Below, piece after piece: positions 4,245 to 57,021 of a stretch of DNA of 60,550 nt. The notes beneath the pieces were generated by a model that saw nothing but the letters and a program-made list of their open reading frames with translations, did not search any database and was not told the origin of the DNA. Each line of letters begins with the position of its first letter. The stretch's first letter is position 1. This DNA is from Geminicoccaceae bacterium (GTDB taxonomy: Bacteria; Pseudomonadota; Alphaproteobacteria; Geminicoccales; Geminicoccaceae): positions 53,016-113,565 of the forward strand of contig JANXAZ010000006.1 in NCBI GenBank assembly GCA_025062095.1, given 5' to 3'. The position numbers and the translations under genes were made by a program.

Positions 4245-5654
4245 ATGAACCGAGCCGAGCGGGTCGGACTCCTGGGTCTCGGGGTGATGGGGCGCAACCT
4301 CGCGCTCAATCTCCGCGACCACGGGTTCGACGTCCTCGCCTTCGATCCGAGCCCCACGGCACGCGCAGCCGCCGCGGCGCTCGGCTTCGCGCTCGCGGAT
4401 CGGCCGGAGGACCTCGCGCCGCAGCTCCCGCCGCCGCGCACGCTCGTGCTGCTCGTCCCGGCCGGAGCGGCCGTGGATGAGGCTCTCGAGGATCTCGCGC
4501 CGCATCTTCGGCCGGGCGACGTCGTGCTCGACGGAGGCAACAGCCACTGGCGCGATACCGCCCGACGCGCCCGGCGCCTCGGCGAAAGGGGCATCGAGCT
4601 CGTCGGCCTCGGGGTCTCGGGGGGAGAGGAGGGAGCCCGCTTCGGCCCCTCGCTCATGGTCGGAGCTTCGGAGCCCGCCTGGCGCCTCGTCCGCCCCCTC
4701 TTGGAAGCGATCGCCGCGCGCAGCGAAGACGGCTCGCCATGCTGTGCCCGTCTCGGCCCGCCACCGGCCGGCCATCTCGTCAAAACCGTTCACAACGGCA
4801 TCGAGTACGCGCTCATGGAGCTCCTCGCCGAGGCCTTCGATCTCGCCAGGCGCAGCCGGGGCTCGGATCACGAAACGATCGCCGAACTTTTCGAAACCTG
4901 GCGCCGCGGCCTCCTCGACGGCTTTCTTTTGAGAGCGGCGGTGCGGGTTCTGCGGACGCCCGATCCCGAGACCCGGGGACCGCTTCTGGCCTCGCTGCGC
5001 GACGTCGCGGAACACAAAGGCACCGGGAGCTGGGCCGCGATCGAGGCGCTCGAGCGCGGGGTGAGCGCTCCTACGCTCCACGCAGCGGTCGATGCGCGCC
5101 TTCTTTCCTCGGCGGTCGAGCTCCGCCGCGAACTGTCGCCTCTCTTCCCGTCTCCCGTGGCGCGAGCCGAAACGCGTCGTGCCGAGCTCGAATCGGCTCT
5201 GGTCGCCGCCGCTGTAGCCGCCTTCGCGCAAGGCTTCGCGCTTCTCCGTGCCGCCTTCGCCGCAGAGGGCTGGCCTTTCGCTCCGCTGCTCGTGGCTCGC
5301 GTCTGGCGCGCCGGCAGCATTCTGCGCGGCCGTCTTCTCGAGCCGATCGCGCGTGCGTTCGAGCGCGATCCCGACCTGCCCTGCCTTCTCCTCGACGACG
5401 AGCTCCTCGCGTCGGTGCTCGCCGGCTTGTCCGACCTCCGCGCGGCCGTGAGCGAGGGAGCGGCGAGCGGCGTTCCGGTGCCCGCGCTGGCGGCGAGCCT
5501 CGCCTATCTCGACGGCCTCGCGAGCGCGCGTTTGCCCGCCGATCTGATCCAGGGCATGCGCGATCTCTTCGGCGGGCACGGCTTCGAACGCGTCGACCGG
5601 CCGGGTCGCTTCCACGACCTCTGGCGCGGGCGGCCCTCGAAAGGCTCTCCGTGA
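4245..5654 (+). CDS. gnd: 6-phosphogluconate dehydrogenase, decarboxylating
   Basis: This enzyme oxidises and decarboxylates 6-phosphogluconate to ribulose 5-phosphate in the pentose phosphate pathway. At 469 residues it has the usual length of the long form. It shows the N-terminal dinucleotide site GLGVMGRNLALNL, the substrate motifs GGNSHWRDT and GVSGGEEGARFGPS, and VKTVHNGIEYALME with the catalytic Lys and Glu region. The C-terminus has the LIQGMRDLFGGHGFERVDRPG tail of the dimeric enzymes. The ATG at 4245 follows GAGGGGAG by six bases. It overlaps the gluconokinase gene by four bases, so the two probably feed gluconate into the pentose phosphate route. Confidence 0.94.
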   Translation: MNRAERVGLLGLGVMGRNLALNLRDHGFDVLAFDPSPTARAAAAALGFALADRPEDLAPQLPPPRTLVLLVPAGAAVDEALEDLAPHLRPGDVVLDGGNSHWRDTARRARRLGERGIELVGLGVSGGEEGARFGPSLMVGASEPAWRLVRPLLEAIAARSEDGSPCCARLGPPPAGHLVKTVHNGIEYALMELLAEAFDLARRSRGSDHETIAELFETWRRGLLDGFLLRAAVRVLRTPDPETRGPLLASLRDVAEHKGTGSWAAIEALERGVSAPTLHAAVDARLLSSAVELRRELSPLFPSPVARAETRRAELESALVAAAVAAFAQGFALLRAAFAAEGWPFAPLLVARVWRAGSILRGRLLEPIARAFERDPDLPCLLLDDELLASVLAGLSDLRAAVSEGAASGVPVPALAASLAYLDGLASARLPADLIQGMRDLFGGHGFERVDRPGRFHDLWRGRPSKGSP

Positions 5655-46568: not shown

Positions 46569-47687
46569 TCAGGTCGGCAGGAAACGGGTACGCGGGGTGA
46601 AAGGCAATCCGAGATCGCGGGCCACCGCTTCGTACACCAGATGACCGGCGACGACGTTGAGGCCGTCGGCCAGGTGCGCGTCTTCTGCGCAAGCACGTTG
46701 CCAGCCCTTTTCGGCGAGCGCGAGCACGAAGGGCAAGGTGGCGTTGTTGAGGGCGGAGGTCGAGGTCCGCGGCACGGCACCGGGCATGTTCGTGACGCAA
46801 TAGTGGATCACGCCCTCCTCGACGTAGACGGGATCGGCGTGCGTGGTCGGGCGCGAGGTCTCCGCGCAGCCTCCCTGATCGATCGAGATGTCGACGAAGA
46901 CCGAGCCGCGACGCATGGCCCGGATCATCGACCGGGAGACGAGCTTGGGTGCCGCCGCACCGGGGATGAGAACCGCGCCGATGACCAGGTCCGCGGTGGT
47001 CACGTGGCGCTCGATCGCATCGACCGTCGAATATTCGGTATTGAGCATGGGCCCGAATTGCAGGTCGAGTTCGTAGAGGCGATCGAGCGAACGCTCGATC
47101 ACGTACACTTGCGCTTCGAGTCCCATGGCCATGCGGATCGCGTTCGTGCCCGCCACACCGCCGCCCAACACCACGACCTTGGCGGCGTGCACGCCGGGAA
47201 CGCCGCCCAAGAGGATCCCCGCTCCGCCCTGCATTTTTTCGAGATAATGCGCGCCCACTTGGACGCTCATCCGGCCCGCGACCTCGGACATAGGCGCGAG
47301 GAGCGGCAAGCGCCCGCGACGATCGGTGACGGTCTCGTAAGCGATCGCCACGCAGCCGGTGGCGAGAAGCGCTTCGGTGAGCCCCTTGTCGGCCGCCAGG
47401 TGCAGATAGGTGAAGAGCACCTGGCCCGAGCGCAGGAGCTTCCATTCTCGCGGTTGCGGCTCTTTGACCTTCACGATCAAATCCGCCCGTGCATAGACCT
47501 CTTCGGCCGTATCGACGACTTCCGCGCCCGCCCGGCGGTAAGCGGCGTCGTCCCAACCCGATCCCTCGCCCGCGCCGCTCTCCACCAGAACCCGGTGACC
47601 GTGGTGGACGAGCTCGCGCACACTCGACGGTACGAGACCGACCCGGTACTCGTGCGTCTTGATCTCCTTGGGCACGCCCACGAGCAT
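46569..47687 (-). CDS. ald: Alanine dehydrogenase
   Basis: Ald reversibly converts L-alanine to pyruvate and ammonium with NAD. The 372-residue protein starts [18 protein letters not shown]. It has the pyruvate-binding lysine in LIVKVKEPQ, a catalytic histidine in [10 protein letters not shown], the nucleotide-binding [13 protein letters not shown], and [20 protein letters not shown] near the end, all standard. The ATG at 47685-47687 has AGGGGG upstream. Its pyruvate could feed the dehydrogenase complex at 38875. Confidence 0.95.
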
Positions 47688-47825
47688 CTCGACCCCCTGT
47701 CCGATCCGTCCGAAGAGGCAAGCTAACGGCCGCGCGCGATCGCGACCAGGGCGGCCCGGTTGCCGCCGCGCCCGCCGGAGCGATATCCTGCGGCGAGGGC
47801 TTCCCGATCCGGCCGTCGGGCTCCG

Positions 47826-48317
47826 ATGATCGCGCTGCGCGCCTCGTTCCTCGCATCCGCGCTCGCCGTGTCGGCGGCCGGCCCGGCGCACGCCGGACCG
47901 GCGGATGTCGCCGGTCGCTGGACGAGCTCCGGAAAAGAACCGATCGCCTTCGCCCTTCTCGTGCGCGGCTCGGGATTCGAGGTCCGGCTGGATCGCGCCG
48001 GTCGGCCCCTGTTCGCCGGCAGCTTCGTCCCCACCGATCGGCCCGGCGTGTTCGAGGCGGGGGCGAGCGGGCTCTTCGCCGTCCTCGGGCGCAAGCGCAA
48101 AGCGGCGAATCCCCTCGAAGGAGAAGAGCTCGTCTGGGGCCGCGCGATCCCCGCCGGCCTCGTCCTCTCGCGCCTGAGCATCGCGGACGGTCGACCGACG
48201 ATCCATCGGGCGCTCGTCGAGCGTCGGGGAGAACGCCTCGCGCTGCGCCTGGAACGATTGGAGGGCGAGAGCTTGCGAGCCGAAGCCGAAGTGTTGCTCG
48301 AACCGGTGCGGCCGTAA
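47826..48317 (+). CDS. Secreted protein of unknown function
   Basis: I do not recognise this 163-residue protein. It begins with a clear signal peptide (SFLASALAVSAAGPAHA) and is otherwise short beta-like segments without cysteines: GRWTSSGKEPIAFALLV, FEVRLDRAGRPLFAGSFVP. It could be a small lipocalin-like or chaperone-type periplasmic protein. It starts a run of closely spaced genes (one-base gap to the next), so it probably works with the following secreted protein and the TAXI-type receptor. The ATG at 47826 gives the signal peptide at the N-terminus. Confidence 0.65.
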   Translation: MIALRASFLASALAVSAAGPAHAGPADVAGRWTSSGKEPIAFALLVRGSGFEVRLDRAGRPLFAGSFVPTDRPGVFEAGASGLFAVLGRKRKAANPLEGEELVWGRAIPAGLVLSRLSIADGRPTIHRALVERRGERLALRLERLEGESLRAEAEVLLEPVRP

Positions 48318-48318
48318 C

Positions 48319-48879
48319 GTGCGAAGGCGGACCTGCCTCGCGCTCGTCGCGCTTCCGATCGTCGCTTTCGCCTCGGCGCGCGCGGCCGAAAGCCCTCTGC
48401 AGCGTGTGTTCGGAACCTGGGTCGGTAGCGCCGAGCTCTTCGACGAGACCGGTGCGCTCCTCGAACAGCGCGATCTCGATCTCCTCGTCGAACCCTTCCG
48501 GCGCTCGGGGTTCCGGTTGCGCACGATCAGCGTCACGCTGGTCGGCGGTCGGCGCGACCGACCGGGCGTGGTGCGCCGCGAGACCGAGGTCGCCTTCGTG
48601 CCGGCGGGCGACCGCCCTTATTTCGTCGAGGAACGGGGCTCGAATCCTTTTCGCGAACGCGAGGAGCTCCAGGCCATGGCCGGCGATCCGGTCCGTTGGG
48701 CGGTCGTGGACGACCAAGGACTGCACCTTTACGCTTTCGTCCTGCTTGAGGACGGTCGCTTCGAACTGCAGGTCACGCATCGACGTCCGACCCCCGAGGG
48801 GCTTGAGCTCGACTTCGTCCGCATCCGCGACGGACGCGTGGTCCGTCGCGCGCGCGGTCGACTGATCCGGGTCGACTGA
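48319..48879 (+). CDS. Secreted protein of unknown function
   Basis: This 186-residue precursor has a signal peptide (LALVALPIVAFASARAA) and a mature part with regular alternating strands: GTWVGSAELFDETGALL, GFRLRTISVTLVGG, GLHLYAFVLLEDGRFELQV. The pattern suggests a small beta-barrel such as a lipocalin, but no family is recognised. GTG start one base after the previous stop; its TGA shares an A with the ATG of the TAXI gene, so these are coupled. Confidence 0.65.
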   Translation: MRRRTCLALVALPIVAFASARAAESPLQRVFGTWVGSAELFDETGALLEQRDLDLLVEPFRRSGFRLRTISVTLVGGRRDRPGVVRRETEVAFVPAGDRPYFVEERGSNPFREREELQAMAGDPVRWAVVDDQGLHLYAFVLLEDGRFELQVTHRRPTPEGLELDFVRIRDGRVVRRARGRLIRVD

Positions 48880-49910
48880 TGCCCGCTGCGCTCGGCCCCA
48901 CACGGCGCCTGCTCGTCGAAGGAGCCTTCGCCGCGCTCGCGTCGTTGCCACTGGCGATCCCGGCGCGAGCCCGGGACAGCCGTTTCTTCCGCATCGCGAC
49001 CGGGCCTGTGGGTTCGAGCACCTTCGCGCTCGGCACCCTTCTCGCCGAAGCCGTCTCCCGGCCTCCGGGGTCCCCGCCGTGCGAGCTCGGCGGTCCCTGC
49101 GGCGTCCCGGGCCTGGTCGCGCTCGCTCAATCCTCCGCCGGCTCGCTCGCCAACCTCGAGCTCTTGGGAAGCGGTCGTGTCGAAAGCGCGCTCGTGCTCG
49201 CGGACCACGCGCGAAACGCCCAGCTCGGTGTCTTCGAGAACGCTCTTCCGGCTCTGCGCGGACGACTGCGCGCGATCGCGGTGCTTCTGCCCGCCGCGCT
49301 GCACCTCGTCGTTCGCGCCGACCTTCCGATCGACGACCTCGCCGGTCTCCTCGGGCGTCGGCTCGGCCTCGAGGAAGCCGGTGCGGGCACGCTCGGTCTC
49401 GCGCGGCTGCTCTTCGAAGCCCGTGATCTCGACGACGAGGGCTTCGAGTTCGCCTTCGTGCCCCGGGCCGCAGCGGTGGACGGCATCGCCGAAGGCCGCC
49501 TCGATGCGCTTTTGCTCGTCGGTCCCTGGCCGGTCCCGGCGGTCGAAGAGCTCGTCGCGAGCGGCCGCGGCCGCCTGCTTCCGCTTTCCGGCGAATGGTC
49601 GGAGCGCCTGCTCGCGCGCCATTCCTGGCTCGTGCGGCAGGAGATCCCCGCCGAGACCTATTCCGGCCAGCCGGCGATCGAGACCCTGGGTGTTCCGCTC
49701 GTCTGGATCGTCGTCGAGGATCTCGACGAGGAGCTCGCCTACGGTCTGACCGCGGCGCTGTGGCGCCGCGAGAGCCTCGCGCGACTGCGGACCGGCTTCG
49801 CGGGAGGAGAAACGCTCGGGCCCGAACGTGCGCTCGAGGGTCTGTCGGTTCCGCTCCACCCGGGAGCCGAGCGCTGGTACCGCGAACAGGGGCTGTTCCG
49901 TGATCCCTGA
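48879..49910 (+). CDS. TAXI-family TRAP-type periplasmic solute-binding protein
   Basis: The 343-residue precursor has a signal sequence (AFAALASLPLAIPARA) and then FFRIATGPVGSSTFALGTLLAEAVSRPPG, the recognisable start of TAXI receptors. Later segments LAQSSAGSLANLELL, LLGRRLGLEEAGAGTL and LDALLLVGPWPVPAVEELV fit the family. TAXI proteins normally deliver ligands to a fused TRAP permease, and none is in this window. Instead it overlaps an ABC ATPase by 11 bases. A receptor for an unusual partner, or an orphan, is possible. Confidence 0.8.
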   Translation: MPAALGPTRRLLVEGAFAALASLPLAIPARARDSRFFRIATGPVGSSTFALGTLLAEAVSRPPGSPPCELGGPCGVPGLVALAQSSAGSLANLELLGSGRVESALVLADHARNAQLGVFENALPALRGRLRAIAVLLPAALHLVVRADLPIDDLAGLLGRRLGLEEAGAGTLGLARLLFEARDLDDEGFEFAFVPRAAAVDGIAEGRLDALLLVGPWPVPAVEELVASGRGRLLPLSGEWSERLLARHSWLVRQEIPAETYSGQPAIETLGVPLVWIVVEDLDEELAYGLTAALWRRESLARLRTGFAGGETLGPERALEGLSVPLHPGAERWYREQGLFRDP

Positions 49911-50685
49911 GCTCGCCCGGCCGCCGCGTTCCGAGCCGGCGTTCGCTTCGCCGCTCGCGATCGAAGTGTCCGGCCTCGAGAAGCGATTCGGCGGGGTCGT
50001 CGCCGTGGGCGGTCTCGATTTCGCCGTCCCGGCCGGGCGCACGGTGGCGCTGTTGGGTCCCAACGGGGCGGGCAAGACGACGACGATCGCCATGCTCTTG
50101 GGCCTGCTCGAGCCCGATGCCGGCACCATTCGCTTGCTCGGTGCGGAGATGCCGCGTGCGCGCTACGCCGTGCTGCCGCGCATGAACTTCTCGAGCCCCT
50201 ACCTCGATCTGCCCTTGCGGCTCACGGTGCGCCAGAACCTTCTCGTCTACGCCGACCTCTACGGTCTCGACGATCCGCGCGGTCGGATCGCGGAGCTCGC
50301 GGCCATGCTCGACCTCCGAGACCTCCTCGACCGGCCCACGGGCAAGCTCTCCGCCGGGCAGAAGACCCGGGTCCATCTCGCCAAAGCGCTCATCAACGAG
50401 CCCGAGCTCCTGCTCCTCGACGAGCCCACGGCCTCGCTCGACCCGGACAGCGCCGATCGCCTCCGCGGCCATCTCGAGCGCTGGCAGACCGCGCGCAAAG
50501 CGACGATCCTCCTCGCCTCGCACAACATGGGCGAAGTCGAGCGCCTCGCGGACGAGGTGCTGCTGATGAAAAACGGTCGCCTCGTCGACCGCGGCTCGCC
50601 GCACGAGCTCCTCGCCCGCTACGGCCGGCGCACGCTCGAAGAGGTCTTCCTCGACGTCGCGCGCGACCGCCACGGAGCGCGCTAG
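49900..50685 (+). CDS. ABC transporter ATP-binding protein
   Basis: The 261-residue ATPase shows Walker A (GPNGAGKTTT), a Q-loop region, the signature LSAGQKTRVHLAKAL, Walker B (LLLLDEPTASLDPDS) and the H-loop (LLASHNMGEVE). The sequence is of the ABC-2 drug, polysaccharide or Nod-factor exporter type, and the C-terminal YGRRTLEEVFLDVAR is typical of it. The likely membrane partner is the permease at 55432, which lies beyond an RND adaptor and pump. The GTG at 49900 overlaps the preceding gene by 11 bases. Confidence 0.88.
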   Translation: MIPELARPPRSEPAFASPLAIEVSGLEKRFGGVVAVGGLDFAVPAGRTVALLGPNGAGKTTTIAMLLGLLEPDAGTIRLLGAEMPRARYAVLPRMNFSSPYLDLPLRLTVRQNLLVYADLYGLDDPRGRIAELAAMLDLRDLLDRPTGKLSAGQKTRVHLAKALINEPELLLLDEPTASLDPDSADRLRGHLERWQTARKATILLASHNMGEVERLADEVLLMKNGRLVDRGSPHELLARYGRRTLEEVFLDVARDRHGAR

Positions 50686-51152
50686 CGCCGACCCCGCCCG
50701 CGCACGGGATCGACACCGGCGCTGCGCCGCGGAAAGGGCGAACCTCGATCGAGTCCGTTGTCGGCGGGACCGGGCCGCGCCCTTTCCCCGCCGCGACCGA
50801 GGCATCCGCGCCGCGGGAGCGTCTCGCCGGTCGGAGCGGCGAGCGAACGCTCGGCGAGCTCGGTGACCGACCTCGCTCCGTCACCCGACGCGCGCCTCGA
50901 GACTCACCGTGTTCGCCACTCGGGTGCCTCGCGGCGTTCACGGCTCGTGCCGTTCGCGCGTTCTCCCTTCGGGCTCGACCGCTCCGGTCTCGGTCCGCCG
51001 CGGTCGAGGAAGCTCGGGCCCGACCGAGCCGAGAGGGCGCGCGCCTCCGGGGCGGTGCGTTTTTCGAACTCATATTCTCGCTGCGTCCGGGTGGTCGATC
51101 CGGTCCGCCGCCGCGTACAATGTGCGGGGTCGTCGGACCCTTCGGAAAAGGG
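50686..51152. other. 467-base gap between the ABC ATPase and the RND adaptor
   Basis: No frame here has protein-like composition. The one possible signal is a TACAAT at 51116-51121, a good -10 box, with only a weak -35 (TGGTCG, 51092-51097) at 18 bases. It would start transcription some 25 bases before the adaptor ATG at 51153. If real, the RND genes have their own promoter and are not simply co-transcribed with the ATPase. Confidence 0.35.
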
Positions 51153-52262
51153 ATGCGCCGTTCGCTTCTCGTCGCTTTCGCGCTTTCCGCGGCGCTCGCT
51201 TCGTGGTTCGCCTCGCGGCCGCTTTCCGAGCTGCTCGGCCTCGAGCGCCGCGACGTTTCGCCGCCCGACGCGCTCGTCGAACCCCCGCGCGCGCGTCCGC
51301 TCACGCCCGTGCGGGTGACCGAGAGCCTCGCCCGGCCGACGGCTCCGGAGCTGCTGTTGTCGGGCGTGACCGAACCGGCGCGGACGGTGATCCTCCGGGC
51401 CGAACTCTCCGGTCGCGTCCTCGAGACCCCGGTCGCGCAAGGTGCGCGCGTCGAAGCCGGTGCTCCGATCGTCCGTCTCGATCCGCGCGAGCGGCCCGAG
51501 CGGGTGCGCGAGCTCGAGGCCCGCTTGGCCCAACGCGAGCTCGAGTTCGAGGCGGCGAGCCGGCTGGGCGCGCGCGGCTTCCAGGCGGAAACGCGGGTCG
51601 CCGAGGCGCGCGCGGCGCTCGAGGAAGCCCGAGCCCGGCTGAAGGAAGCCCGCGCCGAACTCGAGCGCAGCGTCGTCCGCGCGCCCTTCGCCGGCCGGCT
51701 CGAGCGGCGCCTGGTGGAGGTCGGTGACTTCGTCGAGGTCGGGCGGGAGGTCGCGGTGCTCGTCGAGCCGCGACCGTTCCTGATCGTGGCCCGCGCTCCG
51801 GAGAGCCGGGTGCACGAGCTCGCCGCTGGCCTTTCGGGCTCCGCGAGGCTGGCCGACGGGCGCGTGCTCGAAGGGCGGCTGCGCTTCGTGGCGCGCCGGG
51901 CCGAAGACGCCACCCGCACCTTCCGCGTCGAGCTCGAGATCCCCGATCCGCCCGAGGACCTCGCCGCCGGCGTGACCGCACGCTTGGCGATCCGGCTGCC
52001 GGAGGTGCCGGCGCATCGCTTGCCGGCGAGCGCGCTCGTGCTCGACGATGCCGGACGTATCGGGGTGCGGCTCGTCGACGAGGAAGACCGGGTGCGCTTC
52101 GCTCCGGTCGTCGTCCTGCGTGCCGAAGGCGGGATGTTGTGGCTATCGGGCCTGCCCGAGCGGGCGCGCGTCATCACCACGGGCCAGGGCTTCGTGGGCG
52201 AGGGCGAGCGCGTGCTCGTGCGCCCCGAACCTCCCGCGCGCACGGACGGATCGGCGGCGTGA
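51153..52262 (+). CDS. RND efflux periplasmic adaptor subunit (membrane fusion protein)
   Basis: The 369-residue adaptor links an RND pump to an outer-membrane channel. It has an N-terminal membrane anchor (LLVAFALSAALASWFA), a lipoyl-like half (ILRAELSGRVLETPVAQGARVEAG), an alpha-helical hairpin rich in Arg and Glu (about residues 108-170), and the returning half VVRAPFAGRLERRLVEVGDFVEVG. A beta-barrel domain follows. The ATG at 51153 is preferred over one at 51120, which would overlap the putative -10 box. It overlaps the pump gene by four bases. Confidence 0.87.
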   Translation: MRRSLLVAFALSAALASWFASRPLSELLGLERRDVSPPDALVEPPRARPLTPVRVTESLARPTAPELLLSGVTEPARTVILRAELSGRVLETPVAQGARVEAGAPIVRLDPRERPERVRELEARLAQRELEFEAASRLGARGFQAETRVAEARAALEEARARLKEARAELERSVVRAPFAGRLERRLVEVGDFVEVGREVAVLVEPRPFLIVARAPESRVHELAAGLSGSARLADGRVLEGRLRFVARRAEDATRTFRVELEIPDPPEDLAAGVTARLAIRLPEVPAHRLPASALVLDDAGRIGVRLVDEEDRVRFAPVVVLRAEGGMLWLSGLPERARVITTGQGFVGEGERVLVRPEPPARTDGSAA

Positions 52263-55200
52263 AGCGGATCATCGAAGCGGCTTTCGCCCGCCCGCGCACG
52301 GTGGTGGCGGCGCTGCTGCTGCTCGTCCTGTGGGGCGCGATGGTCGCGATCGAGATCCCCAAAGAGGCGGAACCCGACGTTCAGCTGCCCATCGTCTACG
52401 TCTCGGTGCGTCTCGAGGGCATCGCGCCCGAAGACGCCGAGCGCTTGCTCGTCAAACCTCTCGAGCGCGAGTTCAAGAGCCTCGAGGGACTCGAGCGGAT
52501 GCGCGCGATCGCCGCCGAAGGTCACGCCTCGCTCGTTCTCACCTTCGAAGCCGAGGTCGACATCGAGCGGGCGCTGCGCGAGGTGCGCGAGCGCACCGAT
52601 CGGGCCAAGGCCGAACTGCCGCCCGAGGCCGAGGAGCCCGAGGTCGACGAGGTCAACCTCTCGCTCTTCCCGGTGCTCGTGGTGACGCTCTCGGGAGACG
52701 TGCCCGAGCGCACGCTGTTGCGCCTCGCCCGCGAACTCGAAGACCGCATCGAGCAGTTGCCCGAAGTGCTCGACGTGGTGATCGCCGGCGAGCGCGAAGA
52801 ACGCGTCGAGATCCTGATCCATCCCGAAAAAATCGAGGGCTACGGGTTGCGCGTCGACGAGGTCCTCTCGCTCGTGCGCCGCAACAATCAGCTCATCGCC
52901 GCCGGATCGTGGGACGTCGGCAAAGGCCGCTTCGCCGTCGAGGTCCCGGGTCTCGTGGAAGATCTCGCCGACCTCCGCGCGATGCCGATCAAGGTCGAAG
53001 CCGGAACCGTGGTGGCGTTGGGCGACATCGCCACCATCCGACGCACCTTCACCGATCCCGAGGGGTTCGCCCGGGTCGACGGCAAGCCCGCGATCGCGCT
53101 CGAGGTGAAAAAGCGGATCGGCCGCAACATCCTCGCCACCACCGAGGCGGTGCGCGCGGTGGTCGAAGCGCAGAGGAAGTCTTGGCCTCCCGGCATCGAA
53201 GTCGGTTATTCGCAGGACAAGTCGCGCGTCATCGCGACGATGCTCGACGATCTCGGCAACAACGTGATCACCGCGGTGATCCTGACGATGATCGTCACCG
53301 TCGCGGCGCTCGGCGTGCGCTCCTCGATGCTCGTGGGGCTCGCCGTCCCGGTGGCCTTCCTCGCGAGCTTCGTCGTGCTCCAGGCGATGGGGCTCACGCT
53401 CAACATCGTGGTCCTGTTCTCGTTGATCCTCGCGGTGGGCATGCTCGTCGACGGGGCCACGGTCGTCGTCGAATACGCGGATCGCAAGATGGCCGAGGGG
53501 CTTTCGCCCCGAGAAGCCTTTCGTCGGGCGGCGCAGCGTATGGCTTGGCCGGTGATCTCCTCCACCGCCACCGTCCTCGCGGCGTTCCTCCCCCTTCTCT
53601 TCTGGCCGGGGATCATCGGCGAGTTCATGCGCTATCTACCGATCACGCTCGTCGCCACCCTCGGCGCCGCGCTTCTCATGGCGCTCGTCTTCGTGCCCGT
53701 GATCGGCTCGTTTCTCGGCCGACCGCCCGGAGAAGATCTCGCCGCCAAGCGCAACGTCGCCGCCACCGAGAGCGGAGACCTCGACAGCGTGGGCGGCGTG
53801 ATCGGGCTCTACGTGCGGCTGATGCGCTTCGCGCTCGCCCGACCGCTCGCTCTCGTCGGGCTCGCCGCGCTCGTTCTCGTCGCGAGCTGGTGGGCCTACG
53901 CGAGCTTCGGCCGCGGGGTCGAGCTCTTTCCCGAGGTCGAACCCGACCGGGCGCAGATCATGGTGCACGCGCGCGGCGATCTCTCGATCTTCGAGCGCGA
54001 CCGTCTCGTCCGCGAGGTGGAGGCGCGCGTCCTCGGGACCCCGGGGGTCGAACGGGTCTACGCGCGCACGGCGCTCGATTGGCGCGGGGGCGAACAGGTC
54101 GACGAGGACGTGATCGGCATCCTCCTTCTCGAACTCGCCGACTGGCGCAGCCGGCGCCCGGCGCGCGAGATCGTCGCCGAGCTGCGCGAGCGCGTGCGCG
54201 ACCTCGCGGGCATCCGGGTGGAGGTGCGCACCCCGCGCGCCGGCCCGCCCGTGGGCAAGCCCGTGCAGCTCGAGCTCGCGAGCCGCGATCCGGAACGGCT
54301 GGCGGCGGCCACGGCGGCGGCCCGCGCCGCCTTCGAACGGCAAGCCGGCCTGATCGAGATCGGCGACAGCCGGCCGGTGCCGAGCATCCAGTGGCGGATC
54401 GAGGTCGATCGCGAATTGGCGGCGCGGCTCGGCGCGGATGTCGCCACGATCGGCTCGACCGTGCGGCTCGTCACCAACGGGCTCGTCATCGCGACATACC
54501 GCCCCGACGACACCGACCGCGAGGTCGACATCGTGGCCCGCTATCCCGCGGAGATGCGCGGGCTCGACGAGCTCGACCGGCTCGTCGTCGTGACACCGGC
54601 GGGCCCCGTCCCCATCGGTCACATGGTCAGCCGCGAGCCCGCCCCGCGGGTGGCCGAGATCGAGCGCGTCGACGGCGAGCGCGCCTTCACCGTGGCGGCC
54701 GACGTCCAACCGGGCGTGTTGGCCGATACGGTGGTGGGCGAGCTCGCGCGTTGGCTCGCGCGCGAGGGCGACCCCGCGGTCCGCTACCGCTTCAAAGGCG
54801 AAGAGGAAGAGCAGGCCAAAGCTTCCGCTTTTTTGGGCCGTGCCTTCGTGATCGCGCTCTTTCTGATCGCTATCATTCTCCTCACCCAGTTCGACAGCGT
54901 CTACCAGACGCTTCTCATTTTGTCGGCGGTTCTGTTCTCGACCGTGGGCGTGCTCTTGGGTCTGCTCGTCGTCGATCAGCCGTTCGGGATCATCATGAGC
55001 GGCATCGGCGTGATCGCGCTCGCCGGCATCGTCGTCTCCAACAACATCGTCCTGATCGACACCTACAACGAGCTGCGCGGGCGCGGTCTGCCCGTGGAGG
55101 AGGCGATCCTGCGCACCGGTGCCCAGCGTCTGCGGCCGGTGCTCCTCACGACCTTCAACGGCGTGCTCGGGCTCTTGCCGCTGGTCTTCAAACTCAACGT

Positions 55201-55435
55201 GGACGTCATCGGACGCGAGATCACCATCGGCGGTCCCTCCGCCGACTGGTGGCAGCAGCTCTCGCTCGCCATCGCCTGGGGCCTGACCTTCGCCACCCTG
55301 ATCACCCTCGTGCTCACGCCCTGTCTGTTGCTCTTGGGCGCCCGCGTCGGATCCTGGTGGCGCGGTATCCGGGGCGGCCGCACCGAAGCGGTCCGCGAAG
55401 CCGAGGTGGTACCCCTGCCGAGGGCGGCGGAATGA
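52259..55435 (+). CDS. RND-family efflux pump permease
   Basis: The 1058-residue inner-membrane pump has the RND plan: one N-terminal membrane helix, a large periplasmic loop, six more helices, and the same again. TM4 reads AVGMLVDGATVVVEYADRKM, so the aspartate pair of AcrB (407/408) is Asp-Gly here. TM10 has GIVVSNNIVLIDTYNEL. It belongs to the AcrB/HAE-1-like COG0841 group, and the Asp-Gly variant occurs in some proteobacterial branches as far as I recall. No TolC gene is nearby. GTG start, GTGA overlap with the adaptor; ATGA overlap with the next permease. Confidence 0.9.
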   Translation: MKRIIEAAFARPRTVVAALLLLVLWGAMVAIEIPKEAEPDVQLPIVYVSVRLEGIAPEDAERLLVKPLEREFKSLEGLERMRAIAAEGHASLVLTFEAEVDIERALREVRERTDRAKAELPPEAEEPEVDEVNLSLFPVLVVTLSGDVPERTLLRLARELEDRIEQLPEVLDVVIAGEREERVEILIHPEKIEGYGLRVDEVLSLVRRNNQLIAAGSWDVGKGRFAVEVPGLVEDLADLRAMPIKVEAGTVVALGDIATIRRTFTDPEGFARVDGKPAIALEVKKRIGRNILATTEAVRAVVEAQRKSWPPGIEVGYSQDKSRVIATMLDDLGNNVITAVILTMIVTVAALGVRSSMLVGLAVPVAFLASFVVLQAMGLTLNIVVLFSLILAVGMLVDGATVVVEYADRKMAEGLSPREAFRRAAQRMAWPVISSTATVLAAFLPLLFWPGIIGEFMRYLPITLVATLGAALLMALVFVPVIGSFLGRPPGEDLAAKRNVAATESGDLDSVGGVIGLYVRLMRFALARPLALVGLAALVLVASWWAYASFGRGVELFPEVEPDRAQIMVHARGDLSIFERDRLVREVEARVLGTPGVERVYARTALDWRGGEQVDEDVIGILLLELADWRSRRPAREIVAELRERVRDLAGIRVEVRTPRAGPPVGKPVQLELASRDPERLAAATAAARAAFERQAGLIEIGDSRPVPSIQWRIEVDRELAARLGADVATIGSTVRLVTNGLVIATYRPDDTDREVDIVARYPAEMRGLDELDRLVVVTPAGPVPIGHMVSREPAPRVAEIERVDGERAFTVAADVQPGVLADTVVGELARWLAREGDPAVRYRFKGEEEEQAKASAFLGRAFVIALFLIAIILLTQFDSVYQTLLILSAVLFSTVGVLLGLLVVDQPFGIIMSGIGVIALAGIVVSNNIVLIDTYNELRGRGLPVEEAILRTGAQRLRPVLLTTFNGVLGLLPLVFKLNVDVIGREITIGGPSADWWQQLSLAIAWGLTFATLITLVLTPCLLLLGARVGSWWRGIRGGRTEAVREAEVVPLPRAAE

Positions 55436-56250
55436 GCGATCTGCGCGCGCTCCGCCTCTCCTTGCGCCGCATCCGCGCGGTCTTCCGCCGCCACGCCTAT
55501 CTCTTGCTCGCCTCTTGGCCGCGGCTGTTCGAGCTCGTCTATTGGCCCGCGGTGCAGATGCTGTTGTGGGGATACCTCACCTTGTTCTTGCAAGAGCAGA
55601 GCGGCCTCGTCGCGCGCGCGAGCGGGATTTTCCTCTCGGCGGTACTCTTGTGGGACACGCTTTTCCGCGGCCAGCTCGGAGTGGCGATCTGCTTTCTCGA
55701 AGAGATGTACGCGCGCCATCTCGCCCATCTCTTCGTGAGCCCCTTGCGTCCTTTCGAACTCGTGATCGCGGTCTTCGGCATCAGTTTCTTGCGCGTGGCG
55801 ATCGGAGTGGGTGGTGCGGCGCTTCTCGCCGTGCCGATCTTCGGTTTCGTCCTGCCCCGAGCGCTGGGTTGGGCGCTTCTGCCGTATTTCGCCGTGCTCT
55901 TGATGTTCGGTTGGGCGATCGGCCTCGTGATCGTCGGGCTCGTCTTGCGCCTGGGGCTCGCCGCCGAGAATTTGGCCTGGGGCGCGATCTTCCTCGTGCA
56001 GCCGATCAGCGGCGTCTATTATCCGGTGGCCACGCTGCCCGCCTTTTTGCAGCCGATCGCCTGGTGTCTGCCCTCTTCGGCGATCTTCGAGGGCATGCGC
56101 GCCGTGCTCGTCGAGGGGCGCTTCGATACCGGTCTTCTCGCCTGGGCACTCGTGACACTGACCTTCTGGCTCGCCGGCGGGGCCGTCGCCTTCGTCGCGC
56201 TCTTTCGCTCCGCGCGGCGCCTGGGCCTTCTCCTGCAGGTGGGCGAATAG
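55432..56250 (+). CDS. ABC-2 type transporter permease
   Basis: The 272-residue protein has six hydrophobic segments and the ABC-2 permease pattern: LFELVYWPAVQMLLWGYLTLFL in the first helix and LVQPISGVYYPVATLPAFLQPI near the last pair. It is the natural partner for the ATPase at 49900, because no other ABC permease gene lies close. It is translationally coupled to the RND pump by an ATGA overlap. The substrate is unknown; polysaccharide, lipid or drug export is possible. Confidence 0.87.
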   Translation: MSDLRALRLSLRRIRAVFRRHAYLLLASWPRLFELVYWPAVQMLLWGYLTLFLQEQSGLVARASGIFLSAVLLWDTLFRGQLGVAICFLEEMYARHLAHLFVSPLRPFELVIAVFGISFLRVAIGVGGAALLAVPIFGFVLPRALGWALLPYFAVLLMFGWAIGLVIVGLVLRLGLAAENLAWGAIFLVQPISGVYYPVATLPAFLQPIAWCLPSSAIFEGMRAVLVEGRFDTGLLAWALVTLTFWLAGGAVAFVALFRSARRLGLLLQVGE

Positions 56251-56253
56251 GCC

Positions 56254-57021
56254 TCATCCTTCGAGGCCGATGGCGCTCAGCTGGACCCCGAACGGCCCGC
56301 CTCCCGAGCGCGTCGTGCGGCGATAGGAGAAGAACAGTTCCGGTTCGGCCGCCGTATCGCGGCCCACGGCCTGCACCCGCCCGACCCCGGCGCGGGCCAG
56401 CCGCGCGCAGCAATACCCCTCGAGGTCGAAACGCGGACGGCCGCCCTCGCCCGACTCCAGGAAGAACCGCTCGGAGAGCGGATCCTGCTCGACGAAGCGC
56501 TGCCGGAACTCCACCCCGACTTCGTAGGATCGACGCCCGATGCAGGGGCCGACGACCGCGACGATCGACGCGGGATCGGCTCCGGCCGCGACCATGCCCG
56601 CGACCACCGCCTCGAGCACGCCTGCGAGCGCACCGCGCCAGCCGGCATGAGCGGCTCCCACCACGCCCGCTCGCGGATCCGCCAAGAGCACGGGCGCGCA
56701 GTCGGCCGTGGTCACCCCCAAGAGGAGATCGGCTCGGGTGGTCACGAGGGCGTCCCCCTCGGGCGGGCAATCGGCCGGCCAGGGCGCATCCACGCGCACA
56801 CAGCCGGTCCCGTGGACCTGGCGGGCGATGCACAGGCGGCCGAGGTCCGCACCGAGCGCAGCCGCCGCTCGGCGCCGGTTCTCGAGCACTCGGGCCCGCT
56901 CGTCGCCCGAGCGCAGGCCGACGTTCAGCGAAGCGAACACGCCCTCGCTCACCCCGCCGGGCCGGCCGAAGAAGCCGTGCCGGATCCCCGGAAGGCGCAA
57001 TGCCGCCGCTTCCAGCCTCAC
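56254..57021 (-). CDS. pgeF: Peptidoglycan editing factor PgeF (laccase domain, YfiH family)
   Basis: PgeF homologues form a metal-bound pocket and, in E. coli, remove wrongly incorporated residues from peptidoglycan precursors; older names call them polyphenol oxidases. The 255-residue protein has HGFFGRPGGVSEG, the metal ligands in RQVHGTG, TTADCAPVLL and AAHAGWRGAL, and VGPCIGRRSYEVG. The GTG at 57021 overlaps the midA stop as GTGA. lgt-midA-pgeF is a usual alphaproteobacterial trio. Confidence 0.92.
   Translation of the reverse strand: MRLEAAALRLPGIRHGFFGRPGGVSEGVFASLNVGLRSGDERARVLENRRRAAAALGADLGRLCIARQVHGTGCVRVDAPWPADCPPEGDALVTTRADLLLGVTTADCAPVLLADPRAGVVGAAHAGWRGALAGVLEAVVAGMVAAGADPASIVAVVGPCIGRRSYEVGVEFRQRFVEQDPLSERFFLESGEGGRPRFDLEGYCCARLARAGVGRVQAVGRDTAAEPELFFSYRRTTRSGGGPFGVQLSAIGLEG

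Follow-up and report, generated by a model that had tools for sequence, protein, structure and literature searches.

In a 60,550-nucleotide stretch of a Geminicoccaceae genome (hereafter the window; contig JANXAZ010000006.1, positions 53,016 to 113,565), the genes for a resistance-nodulation-division (RND) adaptor and pump stand between those for an ATP-binding cassette (ABC) ATPase and an ABC-2 permease. We read this arrangement, with a probability of roughly 0.88, as a stand-alone RND pump that was relocated, without its PadR regulator gene, into an older operon of TAXI-family binding protein, ATPase and permease in the ancestor of the genus. Sequence comparison shows how the genes are ordered, that both units exist apart in other genomes, that a gene overlap was swapped and that PadR is absent. 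The pump's distribution, its adjacencies and the PadR evidence lead us to regard it as a unit that stands by itself in other genomes and was moved to this site. The result is clearly a reshuffled operon and not a new kind of pump, and as such ordinary in kind. If the reading holds, it is a clean case of operon invasion, in which living relatives reveal donor and recipient, the missing donor regulator and the re-used four-base overlap alike. It would also mean that an ATPase and a permease parted by foreign genes can remain old partners, and that neighbourhood alone is no proof of a joint machine. Searches of an open-access library listed nothing on this RND-within-ABC arrangement.

All four genes lie on the plus strand, at the coordinates listed by a first-pass annotation of the window, and their families were confirmed by profile searches. 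The DrrA/NodI-like ATPase (49900 to 50685) matches ABC_tran PF00005 with 102 bits (cut-off 25), and the permease (55432 to 56250) matches ABC2_membrane PF01061 with 30.8 bits (cut-off 26.9); with both Pfam cut-offs passed, the pair classes as an ABC-2 type exporter. The periplasmic adaptor, or membrane fusion protein (51153 to 52262), scores 172.3 bits against RND_mfp TIGR01730 (cut-off 94.9) and also matches HlyD_3. The pump (52259 to 55435) belongs to the AcrB family, with 554 bits against ACR_tran PF00873 (cut-off 28) over residues 5-1025 of 1058, i.e. its full length. It fits no named multidrug subfamily among the 17 listed NCBIfam models, none of which reaches its cut-off; the best subfamily is RND_permease_2, at 473 bits versus a cut-off of 1250. 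Longer open reading frames (ORFs) with earlier starts are available for both the ATPase and the adaptor, and the adaptor start at 51153 is the one conserved across the genus.

The first-pass annotation had suggested comparing gene order across relatives. The sample used for this purpose comprises 31 genomes of the order, which all fall in a single family; six belong to the window's genus (g1). The permease loci collected number 62, of which six, the window among them, are from g1 and 56 from outside it. The ATPase is present as well in 60 of them, since L025 and L038, which reach a contig end there, are counted without it. The loci outside g1 are nearly all titled or placed under Alphaproteobacteria, with three metagenome bins titled beta- or gammaproteobacterial and some titled only Pseudomonadota. 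Among Geminicoccaceae, relatives of the permease occur at 82-85% identity, including that of the complete KatS3mg117. As the annotation had presumed, ATPase and permease are normally neighbours: the distance between them is -22 to +47 bp in 52 of the 55 non-g1 loci, and wider only in L072 (138 bases), L040 (534) and L077 (668, a gap read for ORFs only). None of the 55 has RND genes in between. In g1, by contrast, adaptor, pump and permease are joined in all six genomes, and the RND pair separates ATPase from permease in each of the five loci that reach the ATPase, with 4.3-4.7 kb from ATPase stop to permease start (4.7 kb in the window). The sixth locus, L025, starts past the ATPase and still reads adaptor-pump-permease. 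The relatives thus carry the same ATPase and the same family of permease touching or overlapping where the window has pump genes between them, and their pump lies elsewhere. Of the two explanations put forward in the annotation, the comparison came out for insertion of the RND pair into an ABC operon.

The recipient operon extends further upstream. The ATPase is the last gene of a run that begins with a secreted barrel protein and continues with a TAXI-family solute-binding protein (48879 to 49910, plus strand; TIGR02122, 187.5 bits, cut-off 84.35). The barrel gene meets the TAXI gene at TGATG, and the TAXI and ATPase genes share 11 bases, provided that the latter begins at the GTG at 49900. 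A TAXI gene stands 5' of the ATPase in nine of the ten non-genus family genomes with the permease, and in seven of the ten a convergent PgeF gene closes the right side within the stretch read.

Both units are also common in each other's absence. In a class-wide draw of 385 genomes, two of them g1 members, the pump (E<=1e-250) was found in 137 (135 of 383 outside the genus) and the permease (E<=1e-20) in 140. The 52 genomes that hold both have them adjacent only in the two g1 members; in nine others they share a contig at distances of 70 kb to 3.4 Mb, and in 41 they are on different contigs, where they could in principle still adjoin across a contig break. The two best pump candidates per genome were scored in this survey. 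G153, G172 and G322 each gave two pump matches, of which the better was used for adjacency; in no case does the other share a contig with a listed permease. Within the family, six genomes have the permease and no pump, eleven have the pump and no permease, and G003, G017, G018 and G026 hold both units apart. Furthermore, none of the pump regions examined, 13 from the family and 20 from the class, showed the permease beside the PadR-adaptor-pump unit; the class regions were drawn from the better-scoring of the 135 non-genus class genomes with the pump.

The stand-alone units, which belong to the AcrB family and match no named equivalog, resemble the window in gene order, and their adaptor and pump are related to those here. 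They differ from it in the PadR gene at one end and in the ABC-2 permease that the window has joined to the 3' end. PadR precedes the pump unit in 25 of the 33 non-genus regions examined: in 11 of 13 family regions, that of G017 included, it lies 5' of the adaptor (a Pfam match was made for one), and tblastn places it in 14 of the 20 class regions. In the six g1 genomes PadR has no match at E<=1e-10. Nor is there a significant remnant in the spacer of the window or the five genus loci, whether searched by tblastn with ten PadR-cluster proteins or by profile; the best tblastn match anywhere in the genus loci falls within the pump gene of L023, with an E-value of 0.003, and by profile nothing appears at E<=10 in these six.

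At the 3' junction, pump and permease genes share an NTGA overlap in all six g1 loci, namely the ATGA already pointed out in the window and GTGA in the other five; adaptor and pump overlap by GTGA in all six. Outside the genus this role falls to the ATPase, whose gene closes with an NTGA that overlaps the permease in the permease's own frame; 37 of the 55 loci show this, among them those of family members G003 and G005. On this sequence evidence, the permease has swapped its upstream overlap partner from ATPase to pump. At the 5' junction matters are untidy. Between ATPase and adaptor lies a spacer (50686 to 51152) of exactly 467 bases, as annotated, and this length is not conserved in the genus: L023, which stands next to the window in the pump tree, has 71 bases, and three further loci have 355-368. 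Three of the six g1 genomes carry a 70-residue ORF in the spacer (L024 996-1208, L026 5377-5589 and L027 5382-5594; 80-89% pairwise identity over the aligned parts), which matches nothing in Pfam or in the other 28 of the 31 genomes, the window's included.

A separate insertion into the same operon is found in L040, from another alphaproteobacterium, where a GFA-domain gene (4980-5489) lies between the same ATPase and permease. Like the window's pump, the inserted gene ends in an ATGA overlap with the permease; unlike it, this is a single small enzyme gene, seen in one case. Judging from these two cases, the re-forming of an NTGA/ATGA overlap with the permease may be favoured.

As for where the pump came from, its relatives occur at other sites in 15 of the 25 non-g1 family genomes, at 56-64% identity (the 64% being that of a fragment), and each of the six g1 genomes has one pump match (E<=1e-100). 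The pump is 80-86% identical across the five genus relatives, and g1 pumps are 60-64% identical to those of G017 and G018, the figure for the G003 pump being 65-66%. In a tree of 47 pumps, from which the G016 fragment (L104) was kept out, the g1 pumps form a tight clade that groups with 13 family pumps, and a branch with 99% support in the Shimodaira-Hasegawa-like approximate likelihood ratio test (SH-aLRT) splits these from 27 class pumps and the family outlier G025. Since g1 and G003 pumps have similar identities to the family outgroups, there is no sign of a source outside the family.

The surroundings of the pump in other genera were also noted. An MlaE gene lies near it in four family genomes, G015, G003, G030 and G028 (L105, L106, L109; G028:C471), and L109 has MlaD and ABC_trans_aux genes nearby as well, so that a lipid transport operon is a recurring pump neighbour. 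In G026 (L112, 2953-11372), a pump pair without PadR lies near lgt and a methyltransferase gene; in many other family genomes these two flank the ABC operon and not the pump.

To consider expression, we turn to the spacer. A candidate promoter, TGGTCG-N18-TACAAT (51092 to 51121, plus strand), precedes the adaptor, and the pattern TGRTCG-N18-TANNAT, with the same spacing, is common to all six g1 loci, where it ends 25-31 bases before the adaptor start and is the only plus-strand match per locus. It matches once in the window on both strands and not at all in 100 shuffles. A scan of 50600-51200 for sigma-70 promoters and terminators gave one weak terminator-like site, at 51042-51054. Because the promoter-like element precedes the adaptor in all six genomes, pump and permease probably form one expression unit that is partly uncoupled from the ATPase. 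We prefer an arrangement in which the spacer promoter would serve the three genes that follow it, from adaptor to permease. The ATPase would then belong to the transcript from upstream, which may also read through. The proposal in the first-pass annotation that the 3' coupling argues for joint expression fits pump and permease, whose overlap is kept in six of six loci, and does not necessarily extend to the ATPase, given the promoter-like element between.

The course of events that we envisage is as follows. An alphaproteobacterial adaptor and pump unit, usually preceded by PadR, would have moved between ATPase and permease and left PadR behind, presumably in a single event in the genus ancestor, which is the simplest reading of six like genomes and a tight pump clade. 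The 3' end of the pump gene would have taken over the NTGA overlap commonly shared by ATPase and permease, and translation of the permease is probably now coupled to that of the pump. Adaptor, pump and permease would be transcribed from their own promoter in the spacer and by read-through from upstream. The ABC exporter would still assemble from the ATPase at 49900 and the permease at 55432, and the pump would still work in the usual tripartite way, together with an outer-membrane protein whose gene lies elsewhere. No outer-membrane factor gene is seen in the operon; elsewhere in the 3.3 Mb genome, three proteins score above the PF02321 cut-off.

Several observations weigh against this account. 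No permease match was found in 15 of the 31 genomes, and the comparison within the order rests on the other 16, together with the further loci. PadR is also missing in the G025 and G026 family regions and in 6 of the 20 class regions, so that the loss of PadR occurs apart from the insertion as well. The tree of pumps was built by a quick method, is rooted at the midpoint and has no support values other than SH-aLRT, and five of its six g1 rows were flagged for unusual amino-acid make-up; it is also compatible with a transfer from another member of the Geminicoccaceae. The ancestral pump site, if vacated, was not identified: pump neighbours differ between genera, and an empty site is not demonstrable from MlaE, whose matches in the six g1 genomes are distant only (E 6e-40 to 6e-38). 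Finally, the promoter pattern was written after the alignment had been seen, which makes the shuffles a measure of its rarity and not an independent prediction; its first hexamer fits the sigma-70 consensus poorly, and the sigma-70 scan found no promoter.

The alternative that fares best, although we hold it to be improbable, is that the two machines make up one export system, as the annotation had also proposed: a substrate, probably lipophilic, would cross the inner membrane by way of the ABC exporter and be expelled from the periplasm or the outer leaflet by the RND pump. Conservation of the operon speaks in its favour. In three comparisons of nonsynonymous to synonymous rate ratios (dN/dS; Nei-Gojobori, window versus L023, L024 and L026), the pump gives 0.12-0.20, the permease 0.14-0.18 and the adaptor 0.24-0.32; the ATPase gives 0.18 in one pair. 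By these values, which indicate purifying selection, all four genes appear to be still in use; and since the order and overlaps of adaptor, pump and permease are kept in all six genomes at 80-86% pump identity, the arrangement is neither chance nor decay. The same operon also encodes a secreted barrel with a predicted fold like that of a lipid carrier, described below. However, a joint machine would be expected to recur, and no recurrence of this one was found outside the genus: each unit is common alone, the 52 class genomes with both have them adjacent in g1 only, and neither the 55 ABC loci nor the 33 pump regions outside the genus repeat the combination. The spacer between ATPase and adaptor is, moreover, variable and has a promoter-like element of its own. 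Slightly less probable still is a relay confined to the genus, in which a lipophilic compound bound by the barrel and TAXI proteins would pass to the ABC pair and then to the pump, while the amount of permease would follow from how much pump is translated. If true, the operon insertion would have created a two-stage exporter.

We consider it very unlikely that the permease was captured by the pump and now serves another ATPase, or acts as an accessory of the pump, in place of working with the ATPase at 49900. In the genus the permease gene does overlap that of the pump and not that of the ATPase; yet the ATPase persists in the same run, is 81-85% identical across four genus loci with the dN/dS given above, and only one further PF01061 match was found in the genome. 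An ancestral joint operon that lost its RND pair in all other lineages is scarcely credible. Nothing beyond the genus itself speaks for it, and it would need removal in every other sampled lineage, with 37 of 55 loci forming an ATPase-permease overlap. It would also have to account for the widespread PadR-adaptor-pump unit, next to which no such permease turned up in the 13 family and 20 class regions.

Returning to the preferred reading, an insertion into an older ABC operon, the genes upstream offer a hint as to what that operon handles. The barrel protein (48319 to 48879, plus strand) has no Pfam or NCBIfam match and is conserved within the family. Its AlphaFold2 model (mean predicted local distance difference test score 84) is a 10-strand calycin-like barrel, closest among solved folds to BFA1 (Z 16.8), followed by DUF3598, nitrobindins and fatty acid-binding proteins (Z 12-15). 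The predicted fold, that of a possible carrier of lipophilic ligands, hints at a lipophilic cargo on the ABC side, with the reservation that likeness of fold proves no ligand. TAXI proteins usually partner TRAP transporters, of which the source genome has many (24 DctM matches). A TAXI protein coupled to a non-TRAP transporter is described for TAXI-GltS (PMC12344293). As in the window, the TAXI gene there overlaps the gene of a non-TRAP transporter; the partner is GltS there, whereas here the neighbouring gene is that of an ABC-2 exporter ATPase. Elsewhere in the class the ABC pair often adjoins other genes, which give no substrate; in L054 these are a polyhydroxybutyrate depolymerase, a YgjP-like protein, a penicillin-binding protein and a two-component pair.

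On its left, the barrel gene is preceded by a gene for a small secreted-looking protein of unassigned family (47826 to 48317, plus strand; the listed ORF begins at 47760, and the ATG at 47826 was picked by eye). It gave no Pfam or NCBIfam match in a profile search, and by tblastn three genus loci match it at 54-57% identity and a single family locus outside the genus at 35%. A further plus-strand ORF, 46641-47726, was considered as an operon marker and rejected: it is an antisense shadow with a His-rich translation, with alanine dehydrogenase encoded on the opposite strand. Its conservation (L023 was omitted from the alignment of its translation) is the shadow of that gene and is good for synteny only. 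On the right, the operon is faced by a PgeF-type laccase-domain gene (56254 to 57020, minus strand; PF02578, ORF start not pinned), a Methyltransf_28 gene and then lgt.

One last observation concerns the pump itself (52259-55435). We take AcrB to carry two Asp in the helix where the pump, compared without alignment, reads VDG, and its relay Lys where the pump reads SNN. The proton relay of the pump may be a variant one.

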